16,216 nucleotides of DNA from Deltaproteobacteria bacterium (GTDB taxonomy: Bacteria > Desulfobacterota > Desulfobacteria > Desulfobacterales > JAFDDL01). Position numbers and translations under genes: made by a program. How positions within the stretch are numbered: position 1 is the first letter of the stretch; every line of letters starts with the position of its first letter. The notes beneath the pieces were generated by a model that was given only the letters and a program-made list of their open reading frames with translations, did not search any database and was not told the DNA's origin. The stretch is taken from positions 1-16,216 of the forward strand of contig JAFDDL010000058.1 in NCBI GenBank assembly GCA_019310865.1, in the 5' to 3' direction. Positions 1,886-15,849 of the stretch are shown here, piece by piece.

Positions 1886-4840
1886 TCAAGATAACGGATA
1901 GCAAATTGCACAATGTGACTTGGTTCCGTCCACCTTTAACTCAGGCGCCGGGTCGATTGTTACATGGGAAATATAGTCAAGTGACCGGCTCACCGGGTGG
2001 CCGGTCAACCAGTCCCAATCCAGAAAATCGGTTTTGTTGTCCCCGACGGTGATATATGTGATACCCAGCCCGGTAATATTGTGGAAAAAATGAGATCCCT
2101 GGGACGGTTCCGCCTTGAGTTCCGAATGAACGGTTTCGATAATGGCCCCCACACCGTAAATGTCGGCCCAGCGGACCGGAATGCCCAGCCAGCGATCCGC
2201 AGAACCCCATCGGCCGGGACCCACCAGGAGGTATTTGCGGTTCGCTTTGGCCAGCAAGGCGTTCAACCGGCCAATTTCCCGCGCGATCTCCGGTGTCTTA
2301 GACGGATCGAACGCATCGGGCTTTACATAGACAATGTCGGTGACGGGCTCCTGCGTGGCGTTTCCCAGGGCGTTGGTGGAATAGCAAACCGCCCGGTCGA
2401 TATCGTCCTGGTTGATTTCCAGTTTGGAAAACGCCGAAGCCGCGGACATGGGCCGAAGTTGAAGCAGGGCAAAGGTGGATCGGCCTTCGGAAGATTCGGA
2501 TAGATTGACGGAGAATTCCAGCTCCACGGGGCATCCCATCCCTTCCTGGCCCGTGACGAGAACATCGCGAAGTAGATCCGGAAGCGGCACCAAATTATAC
2601 TTCAGGATCTGGGCGAAAGTCAGAACGCGGGGCCCGCGGATATGCGTGGTTTCGCGAATGCGATGCTCTTCGGCAATGTAGGTACCTGCCAAAAGTTTCA
2701 TGGGCGGTTCCGTCTCGGCATCCGACACCTCGCGTTTCTCCAGAGCCATGTCCTCGTTGACATCCAATACCTGAGGGACACCGTTTATCTTCAGGGCATA
2801 GAAGTACCGCTGGGCATTTTGAAGTATGTCATCGACTTTTGATCGCTGGGGCAGAAGTTTCGGGTATTTGGGGGAAAAGCGAAGCGTTTTTTCACCTTCC
2901 ATGACCATTTTGCCCAGCCCCATGGCGATTGTTGCGACGCCCTCTTCGGGTTTCATGGGCGGGAATGGATAGAAGTTATGAGACTGGGCCACACCGGATA
3001 CGGCGGGATAGAAAAATTCACCATAATCGCCGCCCACCAGTTCCTGGACGATAACCGCCATTTTTTCTTCTTCGGTCCGATGCCCGACACGCCGGGCAAA
3101 AGCCTTTGGATCTTGAAAGTAAGTAGATGCATAGACGAGTTTTACGGCGGTTAGCAGATGTTCCAGGCGGGAGTCGATATCCGGTTGATTGTTGGGGATC
3201 ATGTAGGTTCGGTAAAGGCCTGCATATGCATGCGCGTGGGCGTCTTCCAATAGACTCGATGACCGAACGGCCAGGGGATAGTGAATATGGGAAATATAAG
3301 CGCGAAGATCCCGAATGATCCAGTCCGGCATTTCTGCAGCGAGGAATTTTTCCGCCACGGCCTCGTTGGGGATATCCCCCTTTGAAAGGTAACCCAGCTC
3401 GTTTGTTTCAACAAACGAGTCAAATCCGTCGGTGGTGATGACCAGGGTTTGGGGGATGATGACATCCACGGATTTGAATTTTTCATTCAACACTCGGTCG
3501 GATTTGAGCAGGTTTGAAAAAAAAGCCAAACCCCGGGCTTTTCCGCCCAGGGAGCCTTTTCCGATTTTTAAAAAATCCGTGTCGGTATCAAAGTCGGATT
3601 CAAAATTGGCTACGACACCGTGCTGGCGCCGCTTTCGGCGCGCTTTGATAATGGCTGCAAGCGATTCGCGGTGTTTTTCAAGGTCATGGGCGAAATCGGC
3701 ATGGGTGATGGGTCTGAGCTTTTGAGCCAGCATAATTTCGGTCCGTGCGAAAAACCATCTGGAAAAGTCATTCCGATTACAATGCAGATAAAACGATTCG
3801 ATGGGCAGGGTTGTCAGGATTTTCTCCAATGCCCGCATGTTAGAGGCCCGATTGATGACCTGTCCATCGGGAAAACGAAAGACAAAATCTCCAAATCCGA
3901 GATGGCTCAGGAAAAAGGATCGGACTTCGGCATGCAGCGACTGGGAATTTTTATCCACAAATTCCGCCGACACCTGGTCTGCTTTTTCCCGGTTTTTCGG
4001 TTCTGAGCTGGTCAACAACAGCGGTATGTCAAATCGATCCGATTTGATTCGCTCCAGTAGCCGGATACCGGCTTCGTCATCCATTTTACAGCTGCGCTCA
4101 AAGCGAACATCTGAGATAACCCCTAAAATATACGGTTCATATTTCTCAAACAGACCGATGGCTTCTTCGTAATTGCTTGCCACAAGAATTTTCGGGCGCG
4201 CGCGCATGGTGAGCAATCGGTGGTCTTCATTGAGCCCTTCTTCCAACACCGCCTGGGTTTGTATGACCAGTTCCCGGTACAAAATCGGTAGGAGTGATGT
4301 GATGTAATAGGGGGAGTCTTCCACGAACAGAATGACGCGGATGCCGGCGGATTCTAAGCGGTCTTCGGCGCTTTTGATCAGTGCCACGAGAATATCCGTA
4401 TTGCCCGACCAGGCGAATATCCGATCCACTCCGTCTGGCCTGGCCACATCGGGAAAACACGCCAGTGTCGGAGGAATTCGATGCGTCATGAGCACAACGG
4501 GTAGGTTGGGATGTTTTTCCTTGATCTTTTGTCCGAGCACGAACGAGTCCATCCCCCACACCCGGGGCATGGTGATGACCATATCCACATGTTTTTCATC
4601 CAGTTCGGCCAGGGCCGCTTCCCCGGAAGACGCCCAATGAATCCGCGGCGGATGGCTCAAATTCAGCCCCTTGTATTCATGAATGATTCTTTCGGAAAGT
4701 CGACAGTCCTGGTCCATGATCCAGGCATCGTAGGGTGTGGATACCAGGAGAATATCGCGCACCTTCTTTTGCATCAGTTCATGAAAAACTTTGAACCGGG
4801 GATCAAAATCCTCTGTGAAATAGTCAATATCGATAACCAC
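1886..4840 (-). CDS. Tandem receiver domains fused to PEP/pyruvate-binding (PPDK-N) ATP-grasp protein
   Basis: This is a large cytoplasmic protein of 984 aa. Numbering from the GTG start: a receiver-like domain at about 25-165; a second receiver at about 168-315 with the acidic pair (FVEDS), a phospho-acceptor Asp near 244 (GVISDVRF), a Thr (LLLTSSE) and a Lys (FVDKN); a linker; then a PPDK N-terminal nucleotide-binding domain at about 425-800 with a Gly-rich loop (GKGSLGGKARG) and LAVRSSSLLED. The first receiver has a Thr where the Asp should be (DMVITMP). The C-terminus carries GPGRWGSADRWLG and a His-rich SQGSHFFHNITG segment. The swivelling His domain and PEP-binding barrel of true PEP synthase or PPDK are absent, so a classical synthase reaction is unlikely; a regulated ATP-dependent phosphotransfer role is inferred. 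The GTG at 4840 is chosen because GGAGGAGG precedes it by eight bases. The in-frame ATG at 4864 has no Shine-Dalgarno. It is the first gene of a probable three-gene operon. Confidence 0.85.
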   Translation of the reverse strand: MVIDIDYFTEDFDPRFKVFHELMQKKVRDILLVSTPYDAWIMDQDCRLSERIIHEYKGLNLSHPPRIHWASSGEAALAELDEKHVDMVITMPRVWGMDSFVLGQKIKEKHPNLPVVLMTHRIPPTLACFPDVARPDGVDRIFAWSGNTDILVALIKSAEDRLESAGIRVILFVEDSPYYITSLLPILYRELVIQTQAVLEEGLNEDHRLLTMRARPKILVASNYEEAIGLFEKYEPYILGVISDVRFERSCKMDDEAGIRLLERIKSDRFDIPLLLTSSEPKNREKADQVSAEFVDKNSQSLHAEVRSFFLSHLGFGDFVFRFPDGQVINRASNMRALEKILTTLPIESFYLHCNRNDFSRWFFARTEIMLAQKLRPITHADFAHDLEKHRESLAAIIKARRKRRQHGVVANFESDFDTDTDFLKIGKGSLGGKARGLAFFSNLLKSDRVLNEKFKSVDVIIPQTLVITTDGFDSFVETNELGYLSKGDIPNEAVAEKFLAAEMPDWIIRDLRAYISHIHYPLAVRSSSLLEDAHAHAYAGLYRTYMIPNNQPDIDSRLEHLLTAVKLVYASTYFQDPKAFARRVGHRTEEEKMAVIVQELVGGDYGEFFYPAVSGVAQSHNFYPFPPMKPEEGVATIAMGLGKMVMEGEKTLRFSPKYPKLLPQRSKVDDILQNAQRYFYALKINGVPQVLDVNEDMALEKREVSDAETEPPMKLLAGTYIAEEHRIRETTHIRGPRVLTFAQILKYNLVPLPDLLRDVLVTGQEGMGCPVELEFSVNLSESSEGRSTFALLQLRPMSAASAFSKLEINQDDIDRAVCYSTNALGNATQEPVTDIVYVKPDAFDPSKTPEIAREIGRLNALLAKANRKYLLVGPGRWGSADRWLGIPVRWADIYGVGAIIETVHSELKAEPSQGSHFFHNITGLGITYITVGDNKTDFLDWDWLTGHPVSRSLDYISHVTIDPAPELKVDGTKSHCAICYPLS

Positions 4841-4874
4841 GGCGATTTCCTCCTCCGGGCACATTCATGATCTT

Positions 4875-4993: not shown

Positions 4994-5647
4994 ATGGACA
5001 AATCGATTCGAAAGTATTGGGAAAAACGTCTCGAAGATCTGACAGGTGCTTTTGAAGCGAACAATTTTGAGGTGTTCATTGCCGATTCGACCGCTGTGGC
5101 CAAGGACATCGTCGTTGATCAAATTTTGCCCGATCTCGGTGCAAAAAGCGTGTCTTTTGGCGGCTCCATAACCGTGGTGGCCTGCGGGCTCTATTCCCAT
5201 TTCAAGGACAATGATAAATATGACGTTATCGATACCTTTGATCGGGGCGTGCCCATGGATGAAATGCTAGAGCGACGCCGGCAATCGCTGCATGTGGATC
5301 TGTTTTTATCCAGCACCAACGCCATGACCGAAAGCGGTCAGCTGGTGAATCTGGACATGCTCGGCAACCGGATTGCCGGCATTACCTTCGGTCCTAAAAA
5401 TGTTATCATTCTGGTGGGGCGAAACAAATTGACCGCCGATCTGGAAGAAGCCATGTTTCGGATCAAGAATTATGCAGCGCCGATCAACGCCATGCGACTA
5501 AAGATGAAAACCCCTTGCGCCAAGACCGGCATCTGTGAAGAGTGTAAAAGCCCGAGCCGTATTTGCAATACCTGGATGATCACGGAAAAATCATTTGGGA
5601 AAGGACGGGTGAAGATTGTTTTGATCAACGAAGATCTCGGTTTTTAA
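4994..5647 (+). CDS. LUD-domain (LutB/LutC-like) lactate-utilisation-type protein
   Basis: This 217-aa soluble protein covers a single LUD domain (PF02589, formerly DUF162). The N-terminal half is a Rossmann-like region, with LGAKSVSFGGSITV at about 46-59 and VDLFLSSTNAMTESGQLVNLD at about 99-119, typical of the stand-alone LUD family. The C-terminal part has four cysteines spaced C-x5-C-x2-C-x6-C (CAKTGICEECKSPSRIC), which could bind an Fe-S cluster or zinc. LUD proteins take part in lactate oxidation with LutA/LutB in other bacteria, but no LutA or LutB partner lies here, so the substrate is not established. The ATG at 4994 has GAGGAG seven bases upstream. The next gene, a UMF1-type transporter, begins about 54 bp downstream on the same strand, so the two may be co-transcribed. 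The short leader contains the palindrome at 4875-4897. Confidence 0.88.
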   Translation: MDKSIRKYWEKRLEDLTGAFEANNFEVFIADSTAVAKDIVVDQILPDLGAKSVSFGGSITVVACGLYSHFKDNDKYDVIDTFDRGVPMDEMLERRRQSLHVDLFLSSTNAMTESGQLVNLDMLGNRIAGITFGPKNVIILVGRNKLTADLEEAMFRIKNYAAPINAMRLKMKTPCAKTGICEECKSPSRICNTWMITEKSFGKGRVKIVLINEDLGF

Positions 5648-5701: not shown

Positions 5702-7042
5702 ATGAGCATCACCGGAAAAAAGGCCATCTGGGGATGGGCCCTGTACGACTGGGCGAACTCGGCGTTTGCCACAACGGTCATGGCTGGGTTTTTCCCGATA
5801 TTTTTCAAGGAATACTGGAGTGCCGGGGCCAACATAAATCTAAGTACGGCCCGGCTCGGTTTTGCCAATGCTGCGGCTGGCCTGCTGGTGGCATTGATGG
5901 CGCCGGTAATGGGCGCCATTGCGGACGCAGCGGGCGCCCGAAAACGGTTTCTCATCGGATTTGCCTACCTGGGTGTATTGATGACTGCCGGGCTTTTTAT
6001 GGTGGGAAAGGGTCAGTGGATCTGGGCGGTATGCATCTATGTTCTGGGAACCATCGGGTTTTCCGGGGCCAACGTGTTCTATGATGCATTGCTGCCGTCC
6101 GTTGCGGGCGTCCAACGGCTTGAACGGGTGTCGAGTTTTGGCTATGCCATGGGTTATCTGGGTGGGGGGCTCCTGTTTTTGATCAACGTGCTTATGATGA
6201 CCCTGCCCCATCGATTTGGATTGGCCGATGCCGGACAGGCCGTCCGATTTTCGTTTTTATCCGTGGCGCTGTGGTGGGGCGGGTTTACGGTTTTCACCCT
6301 TTATTGGGTGCCCGAAGAAAAGCTGACGGATAACCGGGCCGGGGTTCGAAAAGCGGTGGTTGAGGGTTTAAAACGGTTTTTTTCAATTTTCCGCCGAATT
6401 CGCACTTCGAAAGCCGTTTGGCTTTTTCTGCTGGCCTACTGGTTTTATATTGATGGCGTCGACACCATCGTCAGAATGGCGGTGGACTATGGCCTCTCCC
6501 TTGGATTTCCTCGCAATGATCTAATTCTTGCGTTGTTGATCGTGCAATTTGTGGGTTTTCCGGCCGCATTGATTTTCGGGCGTCTCGGAGAAAAATGGGG
6601 TGTTCGCAAGTCCATCTACCTGGCGCTTTTCATCTATGTGCTCATCACCGCCTGGGGAGTGGGGATGACGAGCAGCGTGGACTTTTATCTGCTAGCGGTA
6701 ATGATCGGGCTTGTTCAGGGGGGGATCCAGGCGCTGAGTCGATCTTACTACTCCCGATTGATACCGGCGGACCAGCCGGCACTCTATTTTGGGTTTTACA
6801 ACCTTTTGGGAAAGTTCGCCGTCATTCTCGGACCGGCGCTCATGGGGGCGGCGGGGCTCATTGCCCGGCGGCTCCTGCTGCCCCCAACAACTGATCCGGA
6901 AGTGATTGCCCAGGGCGCGCGCCTGGCATCGCGCTGGGGCATCGGGTCCATCGTCATCCTTTTTGTCATCGGGGGCATTCTGTTTTACGTTGCCGGCAGA
7001 GAAGATAAAACGCATCCACTTCCAGGCGATTTAACGTCATAG
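5702..7042 (+). CDS. UMF1-type (Atg22-like) major facilitator superfamily transporter
   Basis: This 446-aa integral membrane protein has about 12 hydrophobic segments spread over its length. The N-terminus is diagnostic: AIWGWALYDWANSAFATTVM followed by AGFFPIFFKEYW is the signature of the UMF1/Atg22-like MFS family (PF11700). Later segments (GTIGFSGANVFYDALLPSVA, and GLVQGGIQALSRSYYSRLIP near residue 340) also match that family. The conserved Ser-Arg loop in the second half resembles the MFS loop motif. The substrate is unknown; in yeast the family releases amino acids from the vacuole. I choose the ATG at 5702 (MSITGKKAIW) because the family motif begins directly after it. An in-frame ATG at 5672 would add ten residues, and neither start has a strong Shine-Dalgarno. 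It lies behind the LUD gene and converges with alanine racemase, with only three bases between the stop codons and no room for an intergenic terminator. Confidence 0.9.
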   Translation: MSITGKKAIWGWALYDWANSAFATTVMAGFFPIFFKEYWSAGANINLSTARLGFANAAAGLLVALMAPVMGAIADAAGARKRFLIGFAYLGVLMTAGLFMVGKGQWIWAVCIYVLGTIGFSGANVFYDALLPSVAGVQRLERVSSFGYAMGYLGGGLLFLINVLMMTLPHRFGLADAGQAVRFSFLSVALWWGGFTVFTLYWVPEEKLTDNRAGVRKAVVEGLKRFFSIFRRIRTSKAVWLFLLAYWFYIDGVDTIVRMAVDYGLSLGFPRNDLILALLIVQFVGFPAALIFGRLGEKWGVRKSIYLALFIYVLITAWGVGMTSSVDFYLLAVMIGLVQGGIQALSRSYYSRLIPADQPALYFGFYNLLGKFAVILGPALMGAAGLIARRLLLPPTTDPEVIAQGARLASRWGIGSIVILFVIGGILFYVAGREDKTHPLPGDLTS

Positions 7043-7045
7043 AAT

Positions 7046-8164
7046 TTATGATGGCAGATAAATTCGGGGCACCCGTTTCCCTACGGCGCAGACCACATCA
7101 TTAACGATGGTGCCGGTCATCTCGGCCATTTTCGCAATTGACGGATCGGTTCCGAACAGAACCGCCTCATCGCCCACTTGTACTTCCGGGATATCCGATA
7201 CATCCACCATGAACATATCCATGCAGACGCGACCGGTTATCGAGGCCTTTTGTCCCCGAATGGTCACATATCCACGGTTTGACAACTGCCGGCTGTAACC
7301 GTCCGCATATCCCATGGGCAACACGGCGATGGTGGCCGGCCGGGTTGTGTGGTAGGTGCGGCCGTAACTCACCGGGCTGCCGGCGGGCATGTTTCGAAGC
7401 AGGGCGATTCGGGTTTTTAATACCATGGCCGGTCTCAACGGCACCGTTCGACCGGCTTCGGGGGAGGGATACAGGCCGTATATCATAATGCCCGGCCTGA
7501 CCAGATCGTAATTGGCTTCGGGAAAATCGAGCACACCACCGCTATTGGCCATATGTTTCATGGGAATCTTGATGCCGGCATGCTCGATCTCACGAATGAG
7601 CGAGTCAAAGCGACTGATTTGCATACGGGCAAACGATTTGTCCGCCTCATCAGATGTGGAAAAATGACTGAAAATTCCTTTGATGGTCAGGTTGTTTAAT
7701 CGGCCCACTGCAGCCAGAAAATCCGCTGCATCTTTCGGTGTAATACCCATTCGGCCCATTCCGGTATCGATCTTGATGTGAACCGTTGCCGTGGTGCCGG
7801 TATTCGCTGCCGCCATGTCAAGCTGCTGAGCCATTTCAAGGGAGGTGATGGACTGCTCCAAGTTCCAGTCCATCACATTGGGGATTTCATCCGGCTGGAT
7901 CGCACCCAAGGTCAGGATCGGAACGGTAATGCCGGCGTCTCTCAGAGCCTTTCCCTCCTCGGGAATGGCCACCGCCAGGCAGTCCGCACCACTTTTCAGC
8001 GCGGCCCGGCTGACCGGAACCGCCCCGTGTCCGTAGCCGTCGGCCTTGACAACGGCCATGAGCTGCGTTTGGGAACCAATTTTTTTTCGTATGGCGGCTA
8101 TATTTTCGGAAATGGCGTCAAGATCCACCAGGGCCCGGCTTGCGCGAATTGTCGAAGTCATCAT
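7046..8164 (-). CDS. alr: Alanine racemase (PLP-dependent)
   Basis: This 372-aa protein is full length for Alr, which interconverts L- and D-alanine for peptidoglycan synthesis in the cytoplasm. The PLP-binding lysine sits in AVVKADGYGHG (Lys40). The substrate- and phosphate-binding regions HIKIDTGMGRMG and HMANSGG, and the C-terminal catalytic tyrosine motif LPMGYADGYSR (second catalytic base on the other monomer), are all present. GRVCMDMFMVDVSD matches the family's C-terminal beta domain. AAGGAG lies five bases before the ATG at 8164 and eight before the in-frame ATG at 8161, so the start could be either. It stands alone on the minus strand, facing the transporter gene end to end. The upstream region is decayed sequence and shows no clear promoter to me. 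Composition matches the core half of the window. Confidence 0.96.
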   Translation of the reverse strand: MMTSTIRASRALVDLDAISENIAAIRKKIGSQTQLMAVVKADGYGHGAVPVSRAALKSGADCLAVAIPEEGKALRDAGITVPILTLGAIQPDEIPNVMDWNLEQSITSLEMAQQLDMAAANTGTTATVHIKIDTGMGRMGITPKDAADFLAAVGRLNNLTIKGIFSHFSTSDEADKSFARMQISRFDSLIREIEHAGIKIPMKHMANSGGVLDFPEANYDLVRPGIMIYGLYPSPEAGRTVPLRPAMVLKTRIALLRNMPAGSPVSYGRTYHTTRPATIAVLPMGYADGYSRQLSNRGYVTIRGQKASITGRVCMDMFMVDVSDIPEVQVGDEAVLFGTDPSIAKMAEMTGTIVNDVVCAVGKRVPRIYLPS

Positions 8165-8232
8165 CCATGCTCCTTACGGAAAATTACACTTTTAAAAGAA
8201 GGCGTTTTGTTTGTAAGAAGTTAACTTTTTTC

Positions 8233-8260
8233 AAGGGAAAATGGGCTTGAACTTTCCCTT
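8233..8260 (+). terminator. Inverted repeat followed by T-run, terminator-like on + strand
   Basis: Arms AAGGGAAA and TTTCCCTT (8 bp, loop 12) are followed four bases later by seven T residues. Read on the plus strand it resembles a weak intrinsic terminator, yet no plus-strand gene ends here, because alanine racemase and the AAA+ stub are on the minus strand. It may belong to a lost gene or be fortuitous. The stem is AT-rich, so confidence is low. Confidence 0.3.
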
Positions 8261-8275
8261 ATCGTTTTTTTCCAA

Positions 8276-9461: not shown

Positions 9462-9908
9462 ATGAATAAGGCCAATAAATACAGAACATTCCTTTTTTTC
9501 TATACGATCTGTTTGATCGTCGCCACAGCGCTAATTGCTTATTTTGAAATCGAGCATGATTTTCTGAAAAAACACTTTTTCAAAAAAAAGCCTGAGTATC
9601 CGTATTCCTACAAGAAATGCGAATCTGCAGCCAATTTAGATCATAAAAACATATTGTATATGAAATATTTAATCCCGTGCAAGGACAAGCAGCATGACAA
9701 ATTATTAAGCCGCCGGCTACCAAAAATAAAGCACAAAATAAATACGGGAATAACCCCGGCTATGAAGGAAATGGTAGAAGCCGGGAATCTTACAGCGTTT
9801 AAAAAAGAATTCTTAAAAATCATAAATCGGGACATGGACGTGCCCGTAAAAGAAGTGTATTTCGAAGAATTCCATCGCGTAAAAACCGGGAGCGGATTGT
9901 TGCCTTAA
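9462..9908 (+). CDS. Small single-span membrane protein of unknown function
   Basis: This 148-aa protein has one hydrophobic segment at about residues 9-26 (TFLFFYTICLIVATALIAYF), preceded by three Lys/Arg residues, so the long C-terminal part is probably periplasmic with an uncleaved anchor, though the flanking charges leave the topology open. The remainder is very Lys-rich and has two cysteines (YKKCESAANLD and YLIPCKDKQ) that could form a disulfide. I do not recognise a family. It begins 13 bases after the receiver gene on the same strand, so the two may share a transcript, possibly as a sensory accessory. The Shine-Dalgarno upstream of the ATG is weak. AT-rich composition matches the surrounding accessory stretch. 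Confidence 0.6.
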   Translation: MNKANKYRTFLFFYTICLIVATALIAYFEIEHDFLKKHFFKKKPEYPYSYKKCESAANLDHKNILYMKYLIPCKDKQHDKLLSRRLPKIKHKINTGITPAMKEMVEAGNLTAFKKEFLKIINRDMDVPVKEVYFEEFHRVKTGSGLLP

Positions 9909-9977
9909 AAAATCCAGCGTTTGAAGGCCAGGCTGATTGCAAGTGACTGTATTCGATGTAAAACAAGGCAGGAACGT

Positions 9978-12513: not shown

Positions 12514-12517
12514 TTTC

Positions 12518-12559
12518 AACAAGTTTATTAAAAAGAGGCCGCTTCTTAAACGACTTGTT
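12518..12559. terminator. Long imperfect hairpin between convergent genes
   Basis: Outer arms AACAAGT and ACTTGTT pair exactly. Inner arms TTAAAAAG and CTTCTTAA pair with one mismatch, giving a stem-loop of about 42 bases. It starts four bases after the kinase stop and covers the last codons and stop of the acetyltransferase gene on the other strand. Such a shared hairpin between convergent genes could end transcription from both sides, although the T-run is poor. Confidence 0.45.
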
Positions 12560-12992
12560 CGATGTTCTTAGATATTACGCTTATATCTGAACGATGAACC
12601 CAGCCGATGTTTTTCCAAAATTCAATACCATTTGCATTGTCATTAAAAATAAAAATGTGGCATTTCTGAAGCTCAGCATTCGTTAGTTTCTGCAAGGATT
12701 TTCCAACGAGCCGGCTTGCGAGACCTTGTCGCCGGAAGTCATGGTGAACAGATAGATGATGGATATATCCCCGCCGGCCGTCATGACCGGCCAATATAGC
12801 ACCGACTACTTTCCCGCCTGTGTTTGTAGCGACGAAGCTCATCCCAGGATTACGCTCAAGATACGACTTAATGCATTCTCTTGAATCAGCCCTGCTCAAT
12901 CCCACACCCTCAGACTGTTTCCACAGAGCGAAAACACTGTTGTATAAATCAATAGTAAAAGGTGATATCGTTATATTGGTTGCAGCGCGCAT
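12546..12992 (-). CDS. GNAT-family N-acetyltransferase
   Basis: This 148-aa protein is one complete GNAT domain, which transfers an acetyl group from acetyl-CoA to an amine. Motif A is clear at about residues 75-100: IHHLSVHHDFRRQGLASRLV, containing the acetyl-CoA pyrophosphate loop (RRQGLA). The preceding strand VVGAILAGHDGRRGYI and the C-terminal motif B (HIFIFNDNANGIEFWKNIGW) also fit, and are reminiscent of YpeA/RimI-like small acetyltransferases. The acceptor is unknown. The ATG at 12992 has only a weak GGGA upstream. A short hairpin (TTCCAAAC and GTTGGGAA, 7 of 8 paired) occupies the leader just before the start and might hide the ribosome site. It is the last gene of an all-minus-strand block of unrelated single genes, which fits cassette-like cargo, but no attC-like site flanks it. 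Confidence 0.9.
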   Translation of the reverse strand: MRAATNITISPFTIDLYNSVFALWKQSEGVGLSRADSRECIKSYLERNPGMSFVATNTGGKVVGAILAGHDGRRGYIHHLSVHHDFRRQGLASRLVGKSLQKLTNAELQKCHIFIFNDNANGIEFWKNIGWVHRSDISVISKNIEQVV

Positions 12993-13877: not shown

Positions 13878-13886
13878 TATAAATTT

Positions 13887-14036
13887 CTATATTGGTAATC
13901 CTGGAATGATACGACCCTTTACTTTTTCCTTGTAATCCAGGTATTTCGTTCCAATTGCTCGTTCCAAACCGTCTTCCTCGATAAGGATTAAAAATATAAA
14001 ACCTGACCACCATACCGGCACCAGCGTAACACCCAT
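13887..14036 (-). pseudogene. C-terminal tail of isoprenylcysteine methyltransferase-like protein
   Basis: A 49-codon frame from ATG at 14036 reads a short hydrophobic segment (LVPVWWSGFIFLILIEEDGL) followed by RAIGTKYLDYKEKVKGRIIP and GLPI. This matches the last transmembrane segment and the conserved tail of the bacterial ICMT/methyltransferase family (EExxL...FGxEYxxYxxxVxxRIIPGL). The rest of the protein, normally four or more membrane spans and the SAM-binding RHPxY region, is missing. The frame extends upstream only 11 codons to a stop. It sits between the nitroreductase stop and the hydrolase start, so it marks a deletion or recombination junction. A competing 76-codon frame over the same DNA (13840-14070) shows no family features. 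Confidence 0.6.
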
Positions 14037-14071
14037 TAGGGAGCCATGGATTATTGAGATATGGGTTCATT

Positions 14072-15023: not shown

Positions 15024-15095
15024 GCACAACGCTTGGCATCACCTGGATCGAAAACCGCAAAGTTTTTTTAGATCAGATACATGCCTTTGTTGGAC
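15024..15095 (-). repeat. attC-like integron recombination site (72 bp)
   Basis: Read on the minus strand it starts with GTCCAAC (RYYYAAC core, R'') and ends with AAGC plus GTTGTGC (GTTRRRY-like core with one deviation, R'). Between them GGCAT pairs with ATGCC, and CTGATC pairs with GATCCAG with one extra base, separated by an AT-rich loop. An imperfect palindrome of this size, with paired L and R boxes and an extrahelical base, is the anatomy of an attC site. It lies ten bases after the stop of the orphan gene and 37 bp before the nitroreductase start, the usual compact placement. Confidence 0.7.
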
Positions 15096-15814
15096 GATTG
15101 TTTGGCTAAAATTCAATTGATTGAGAGGCCTTCCTCTCAACCTCCTCTTCTTCTGATATCAAGGAATCAATAATTTTTCTTTTGTCTGTCTCTGGTTCAA
15201 ACAGGTCCCGAAGAGCATAATAAGCCTCGTAACCGTCAGGATTTGTCGAATAATAAAAATCTTTGGCTAACTCTGAAAATGAATCAAGGTTTGCTTGGTC
15301 AATACATGCTTGCGTGTAGTAAGTGATGAGAATGCTGAGAATATTCTCGAACTCATGAAAAAACGACACGTCTGAAAGAAGGTCATTTCTACCGGGATAA
15401 TTGTCCAGACCATATAGAAGCAGGGATTTAAGGTTCTTATTGGCTTCTTTGTAGTATCTCCTGATCAATGGATAATTTGGATTCTTCGCAGCCTTTTCCT
15501 TAGAGTAACTTTCAAGTATCTTTTTTGATAATTTCTGTTTGCCTTCAAAAAATGCGACTAGCTCTCTCTGGCTTTGGTTTTCCGGTTTTGCATTTCTTTC
15601 TTCTATTTCTTCACTATCATCATCATCGTCTTCAAAATACTCGAAGCCAAGTTCTTCCATTTTGCCAATATAGTTTTTCGGATGGTTACGAAAAATTTTA
15701 TTCACTTTGTCACGAATGGCTTCATTTTTTAATTTTTCGGAGTCATCAAGGACGGAATCTTTGTCTTTTTTGCCCATTTCAGGATAGTTTCCTAATTTTT
15801 AATTTTACGTCCAA
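15030..15814 (-). mobile_element. Candidate integron gene cassette with one orphan gene
   Basis: On the minus strand this 785-bp unit begins with TTGGAC just after the G of a GCG|TTGGAC core at 15815-15809. It carries one gene in the forward direction and ends at the G of the AAGCG|TTGTGC core. Its closing R'' core, GTCCAAC, is the exact complement of G+TTGGAC at its start. This is expected because both come from the same attC of the circular cassette. Leader length (37 bp) and trailer length (10 bp) are typical. No integrase gene is visible in the window. Confidence 0.65.
15106..15777 (-). CDS. Acidic orphan protein encoded in the cassette
   Basis: This 223-aa soluble protein is highly charged. 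It has a Lys/Asp-rich N-terminus (MGKKDKDSVLDDSEKLKNEA), an acidic run near residues 45-60 (EYFEDDDDDSEEIEERNA), a predicted helical middle with many aromatic residues (YYKEANKNLKSLLLYGLDNY, FFHEFENILSILITYYTQAC) and an acidic tail (EEEEVERK). There is no signal peptide, membrane segment or recognised motif. Integron cassettes often carry orphan proteins, so lack of a match fits the context. The start is the ATG at 15777; an AGGA lies 12 bases upstream, a little far. The gene fills the cassette with a 37-bp leader and a 10-bp trailer. No function can be assigned; the long acidic run and helical pattern leave a protein- or nucleic-acid-binding role open, but that is a guess. Confidence 0.8.
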   Translation of the reverse strand: MGKKDKDSVLDDSEKLKNEAIRDKVNKIFRNHPKNYIGKMEELGFEYFEDDDDDSEEIEERNAKPENQSQRELVAFFEGKQKLSKKILESYSKEKAAKNPNYPLIRRYYKEANKNLKSLLLYGLDNYPGRNDLLSDVSFFHEFENILSILITYYTQACIDQANLDSFSELAKDFYYSTNPDGYEAYYALRDLFEPETDKRKIIDSLISEEEEVERKASQSIEF

Positions 15815-15849
15815 CGCTGAGTCGACTGAACTTCACCAGAGCGACGCAG
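15809..15849 (-). repeat. Incomplete attC-like site (3' half)
   Basis: On the minus strand, CAGTCGACTCAGC leads into the canonical core GTTGGAC, as in the L'-R' half of attC sites. A short stem (CTGCGTCG with CGACTCAG, 7 of 8 paired) can form upstream. I find no RYYYAAC partner core between here and the Ogt stop at 15893, so the first half is missing or too diverged to see. Confidence 0.45.

Follow-up and report, generated by a model that had tools for sequence, protein, structure and literature searches.

A probable lone integron gene cassette, with cargo from a large family of unnamed proteins, in a deltaproteobacterial contig

The window analysed here is the whole 16,216-nucleotide stretch of contig JAFDDL010000058.1. 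On its minus strand, a compact unit with one open reading frame lies between a methylguanine-DNA-methyltransferase (MGMT)-like gene (16192-15893) and a ferredoxin-nitroreductase gene. The features of the unit are as follows.

15030..15814, minus strand: predicted integron gene cassette in its inserted form, marked by complementary cores, an attC model match and related units in unrelated flanks
15809..15815, minus strand: opening core GTTGGAC, which forms the left junction as the R' half-site; strands should cross over between G 15815 and TTGGAC
15778..15814, minus strand: leader of 37 nt, resembling five of six compared copies
15106..15777, minus strand: ORF of 223 aa, ATG to TAG, acidic (pI 4.78), of an unnamed family
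15096..15105, minus strand: trailer of 10 nt, from the stop codon to attC
15024..15095, minus strand: attC site (model R1), a 72-nt hairpin whose final six bases are the recipient side
15089..15095, minus strand: R'' core GTCCAAC (RYYYAAC), the exact complement of the opening core
15071..15085, minus strand: L'' arm (GGCAT, GTA, TCTGATC), from the R1 alignment and reading by eye
15035..15049, minus strand: L' arm (GATCCAG, GTG, ATGCC), pairing with L'', from the R1 alignment and reading by eye
15024..15030, minus strand: right junction GTTGTGC, one position off GTTRRRY, with the GTT triplet intact

The first-pass annotation had placed these elements correctly, including the 37-nt leader, the 10-nt trailer, the single 223-aa ORF and the 72-nt hairpin. 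A sequence scan of the window showed that the R'' core matches RYYYAAC and that the opening core, the cassette's own R', matches GTTRRRY. The complementarity claimed for the closing and opening cores is exact (7/7) and even extends to 8 bases, GTTGGACG and CGTCCAAC. In integrons, the R' end of an inserted cassette past the G (here TTGTGC, 15029-15024) is recipient DNA, so the cassette proper is 15814-15030. The unit originally drawn as 15024..15814 therefore had its parts in the right places but included six last bases that are the recipient's. The complement of the right junction, GCACAAC, does not occur on the window's minus strand.

For 3/665 ORFs, a GTTRRRY core lay within 90 nt upstream and the exact complement of that core no more than 60 nt downstream; the count covered ORFs of at least 100 aa from part of the loci studied and is insensitive, overlooking most genuine array cassettes. 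The three ORFs are that of the window, the homologous one in L006 and one in L091. Folding the bottom strand of the attC (15095-15024) as a single strand, as had been proposed, gives -7.3 kcal/mol, a modest gain over shuffled sequences (z -1.26), so the energy by itself would not settle the matter. A strict GTTRRRY attC scan returned zero sites in the window because GTTGTGC departs from the consensus at one position. Nor was the window site among those of a further, relaxed attC scan that required a z of -1.2.

A covariance model, R1, was built from the aligned ends of 16 attC sites, none of them from the window, which were gathered in family-holding genomes from contigs that have an array or match the integrase. 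In the training alignment 71.2% of structure cells pair, compared with 54.9% for shuffled sequences and 30.6-45.4% when the pairing partner is slid along, the structure having been drawn from the training sequences themselves and thus being favoured over the slid comparison. The first-pass annotation had named an attC covariance model as a check, and this relatives-trained one found the site: over 58 sources (273 kb), R1 matched window positions 15024-15095 with 32.7 bits (E 6.2e-5). This was the top match outside the training set, and the single higher one, L006 6091-6153, is a training site. When the window was searched alone with filters off, the site scored 19.7 bits (E 0.0053) and the runner-up 8.3 bits; these two values for one site disagree, for no reason that we can give. 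In 25 non-cassette loci (85 kb), R1 with filters off gave zero matches at E≤3. R1 does miss sites: the attCs that belong to the family copies in L001 and L006 fall under its threshold.

The probability that the unit is an accident, namely a hairpin behind an ordinary gene with fortuitous cores, is close to nil. The modest fold energy would suit an accident, but the R1 scores, the 3/665 count and the matching positions of the cores in other genomes all speak against it. It is the covariance model and the homologous copies that set the site apart from background.

Other hairpins were also seen. One at window positions 12514-12563, between an HDOD-kinase gene and a GNAT gene, is probably a terminator and is not an attC by R1. 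Another, at L003 19395-19451, is a 57-nt near-perfect palindrome with an energy z of about -8 to -11.

A genome scan yielded ten loci encoding relatives, and L029 came from a separate scan. The opening core GTTGGAC is common to L002, L003, L006 and L029; L001 has TTTGGAC and L005 has GTTGAAC. Compared with the window, L001 preserves the opening, the leader (30/37) and the trailer with R'' (14/17), and L006 preserves both cores and the trailer (13/15), with a dissimilar leader (z 0.4). Leader similarity between the window and L001-L005 has z values of 4.8 to 9.4. L005 carries both GTTGAAC and CGTCCAAC around a frame-broken ORF, which makes its ORF values in the pairwise z comparison invalid. 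Several copies (L002, L003, L004/L010 and L029) are missing one end: L002 and L003 retain the opening, L004 and L010 terminate in CGTCCAAG, and L029, though degraded, still has the opening. In L004 after 2556 and in L010 after 3085, a terminator-like hairpin stands 3' of CGTCCAA, in the place of attC. L010 additionally has a broken ORF and a tandem duplication of the stretch after CGTCCAA.

The leaders of the window, L001, L003, L004, L005 and L044 are alike and end near ...CTATCC..AA-ATG. No obvious Shine-Dalgarno sequence was seen near the start in these six; L007 and L008 have AGGAA.

Upstream of the leader, the DNA is unrelated to that of the window in 6/6 compared copies (z -1.4 to 0.2). 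The first-pass annotation had counted homologues that lack the palindrome but share the neighbouring DNA as evidence against a cassette; among the copies compared, related units sit in unrelated flanks. In the L006 array, the family cassette lies between attCs 4520-4607 and 6091-6153, and its own attC, read from its cores, is at 5321-5445. The L001 copy comes after attCs 8138-8269 and 9896-9969; the cassette enclosed by these two has a histidine-kinase-like gene (named by sequence only). The rule relating cassette start and R'' was followed in six arrays, where 10/15 neighbouring pairs agree at all 4 free core positions. In total 55/60 positions agree, compared with a shuffled mean of 31.8, and 0/20,000 shuffles reach 55.

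Conservation between copies stops at the inverted 8-mer, and the hairpin beyond it differs among the window, L001 and L006, as would be expected of a non-cassette element that has the 8-bp inverted repeats GTTGGACG/CGTCCAAC as its ends and a transposase to mobilise it. We regard such an element as highly improbable, because by eye no target-site duplication flanks the 8-mers in the window, L001, L005 or L006, the window DNA past the right 8-mer matches attC sites, and L006 and L001 are in attC arrays. The original reading of a complete integron-type cassette is upheld by the cores, the R1 match and the related units in unrelated flanks and arrays. That the window unit is a genuine integron cassette is close to certain.

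The window protein had been described as an acidic orphan. It is acidic, as its pI shows, but it is no orphan: 745 homologues were found at E≤1e-3, a profile search recovered 928 family members among 7998 scored candidates, and some members occur in ordinary chromosomal contexts. The best 120 of the 745 homologues are 78-100% identical to the window protein and 75-100% identical to one another (median 86%). Family members were present in 9/395, 27/291, 12/257, 1/11, 14/85 and 35/389 genomes of six overlapping samples. Searches of Pfam, NCBIfam, PADLOC and PHROGs gave no significant match or name for the window protein. AlphaFold2 predicts it to consist entirely of helices (mean pLDDT 89.4, pTM 0.71). 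Sequence and fold searches gave no significant match to a TPR-like helical-repeat protein: TPR family profiles left the protein unmatched, and Foldseek with the model gave zero matches at E≤0.001. From fold and conservation we guess that it may be an acidic helical-repeat adaptor, located in the cytoplasm and with another protein as its partner; neither a fold match nor a shared neighbour gene backs this guess. The window ORF and that of L001 are 87% identical in DNA but only 57% identical at 53 fourfold sites, which speaks for purifying selection on the window ORF. Relatives of about 300 aa with an extra N-terminal stretch rich in cysteines were noted at L078 1477-2376, L080 1465-2364 and L056 1231-2124. 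The one in L080 adjoins an RF-1-domain gene.

Non-cassette homologues (L025, L026, L007, L008 and L047; 61-71% identity) have neither core at the cassette positions and a different leader. Below about 72% identity, the copies compared are without the core pair at cassette positions, except for L006 and the fragment L029. In a tree of 34 proteins, from which L005, L010, L029 and other fragments were omitted, the cassette copy L006 falls outside the clade of the remaining cassette copies. That clade is joined, on a well-supported branch, by L025 and L026, which are not cassettes, and it includes the core-less L044. A single clade for the six cassette-type copies was not rejected (p 0.153, or p 0.311 with L044 added), and these copies may have a single origin.

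The integron integrase profile TIGR02249 matched a full-length integrase above the NCBIfam cut-off in 5/9 family-holding genomes (G003-G007) and in 0/14 controls. Sub-cut-off matches occurred in 9/9 and 14/14, respectively. G006 and G007 hold non-cassette copies only, so the count among genomes with cassette-type copies is 3/6 (G003, G004 and G005). G001, which holds both L001 and L006, as well as G002 and G009, has just weaker matches or fragments. At L006 2107-2418 (minus strand), about 2.2 kb from the family cassette, there is a truncated N-terminal part of an integron integrase (E 3.5e-28). An intI gene and further attC sites had been suggested as things to look for in the flanks, and neither is in the window. 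A Pfam scan of 14 ORFs found no recombinase, and Pfam together with tblastn found no integron integrase. The tblastn queries were seven long frames of integrase loci in the relatives; they hit the window three times, weakly, and the top hit (E 0.006) is inside the MFS gene. R1, both filtered and unfiltered, found no second attC.

The best matches (56%) of a 992-aa protein at 1886-4864 are in genomes of the phylum of G001, taken as Desulfobacterota. The DNA thus looks deltaproteobacterial, as the first-pass annotation had proposed. The chromosomal (sedentary) integron of that proposal is not displayed by the window, which has one attC and no integrase. The flanking nitroreductase, sought at E≤1e-40 with no positive control, was found in 0/85 genomes, and no empty site was found. 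At window positions 13880-14071 (minus strand), between the nitroreductase and alpha/beta hydrolase genes, there is presumably a remnant resembling the C-terminal part of isoprenylcysteine carboxyl methyltransferase.

On the upstream side of the opening core the window extends for about 400 bases, to 16216, and a sedentary chromosomal integron could have its integrase and more cassettes past that end. The above-cut-off integrase in three of the six genomes with cassette-type copies and the two copies in attC arrays (L001 and L006) would agree with this. However, R1 sees no attC in the stretch that separates the MGMT-like gene from the opening core, or beyond the nitroreductase, and we consider membership of such an integron unlikely. 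Since the cassette stands alone between the MGMT-like and ferredoxin-nitroreductase genes, it is either a lone cassette or the remainder of an array. Very probably the unit is a single integron gene cassette outside any visible array, perhaps a lone cassette inserted at an attG-type site, or else what is left of an array. In the mechanism that we propose for it, an integron integrase would come from elsewhere in the cell and would swap strands between the G and TT of the core with attI, attC or another G/TT-type site. The gene would travel as a circle, and its chromosomal form would read TTGGAC...GTCCAAC-hairpin-G. We infer that the window's own copy may still be mobile and that its host would own an integrase.

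The absence of one end from L002, L003, L004/L010 and L029 means that many copies may be relics. The window unit could likewise be a one-time cassette, with an attC that folds but has lost its mobility and a gene that selection retains. The off-consensus right core GTTGTGC, the incomplete copies elsewhere and the purifying selection on the ORF fit such a relic. On the other hand, R'', the L arms and the opening are intact and the site is among the better R1 scorers. We hold a relic to be a real possibility, though less likely than not.

The attC is 72 nt long in the window, about 65-70 nt in L001 and 125 nt in L006, and beyond R'' the three bodies are dissimilar (z -1.2 to 1.5). L001 and L004 are 92% identical at 59 fourfold sites, yet they diverge at the last R'' base (z -0.2 beyond it). 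Beyond-R'' z values of 2.6 to 4.1 were obtained for window/L002, window/L004, L003/L004 and L004/L006. By a passage in each of PMC8352920 and PMC8618304, attCs of chromosomal integrons tend to resemble each other within a taxon. From the sequence comparison, the gene and both R cores might move together unchanged, with one attC body between R'' and R' being replaced by another, but we find this doubtful. Fourfold identity among the window, L001 and L006 is 36-57%, and drift can explain the dissimilarity of their bodies. L004 looks as if it had simply lost its attC and had the terminator-like hairpin instead. Given drift and attC loss as alternatives, body exchange stays a weak lead.

Among known systems, the window unit is close to integron gene cassettes. 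With those of the L085 and L091 arrays it has in common the R''/R' and L''/L' boxes, the complementarity of opening and closing, a single ORF oriented like the attC, AACAA following R'', and a right end with AGCGTT. Unlike them, it stands alone and its right junction is off consensus. Passages in PMC12444791 and PMC12901181 describe attG as a site of cassette insertion outside integrons. Like attG-inserted cassettes, that of the window is one cassette among ordinary genes with a G/TT junction; it differs in that no empty site was found for it. A CALIN is a cluster of attC sites without an integrase, and the window likewise has an attC without a nearby integrase, but a single one; the default CALIN threshold of IntegronFinder is two attC, as given in a passage of PMC12444791. 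The non-cassette homologues belong to the same family but are without the cores and leader of the window.

About 80% of integron cassette ORFs are of unknown function, according to a passage in PMC3548836. Here, one unnamed cassette cargo proves to be a member of a large protein family, whose non-cassette relatives occur in genomes of the same phylum. Cassette genesis is not known to have been solved. If attC bodies were swapped, and not drifting or deleted, the family and its non-cassette relatives would be a natural record of attC gain, that is, of cassette genesis. As a family with both resident and mobile forms, it offers, through their comparison, a handle on the function of the protein and on the origins of cassettes.
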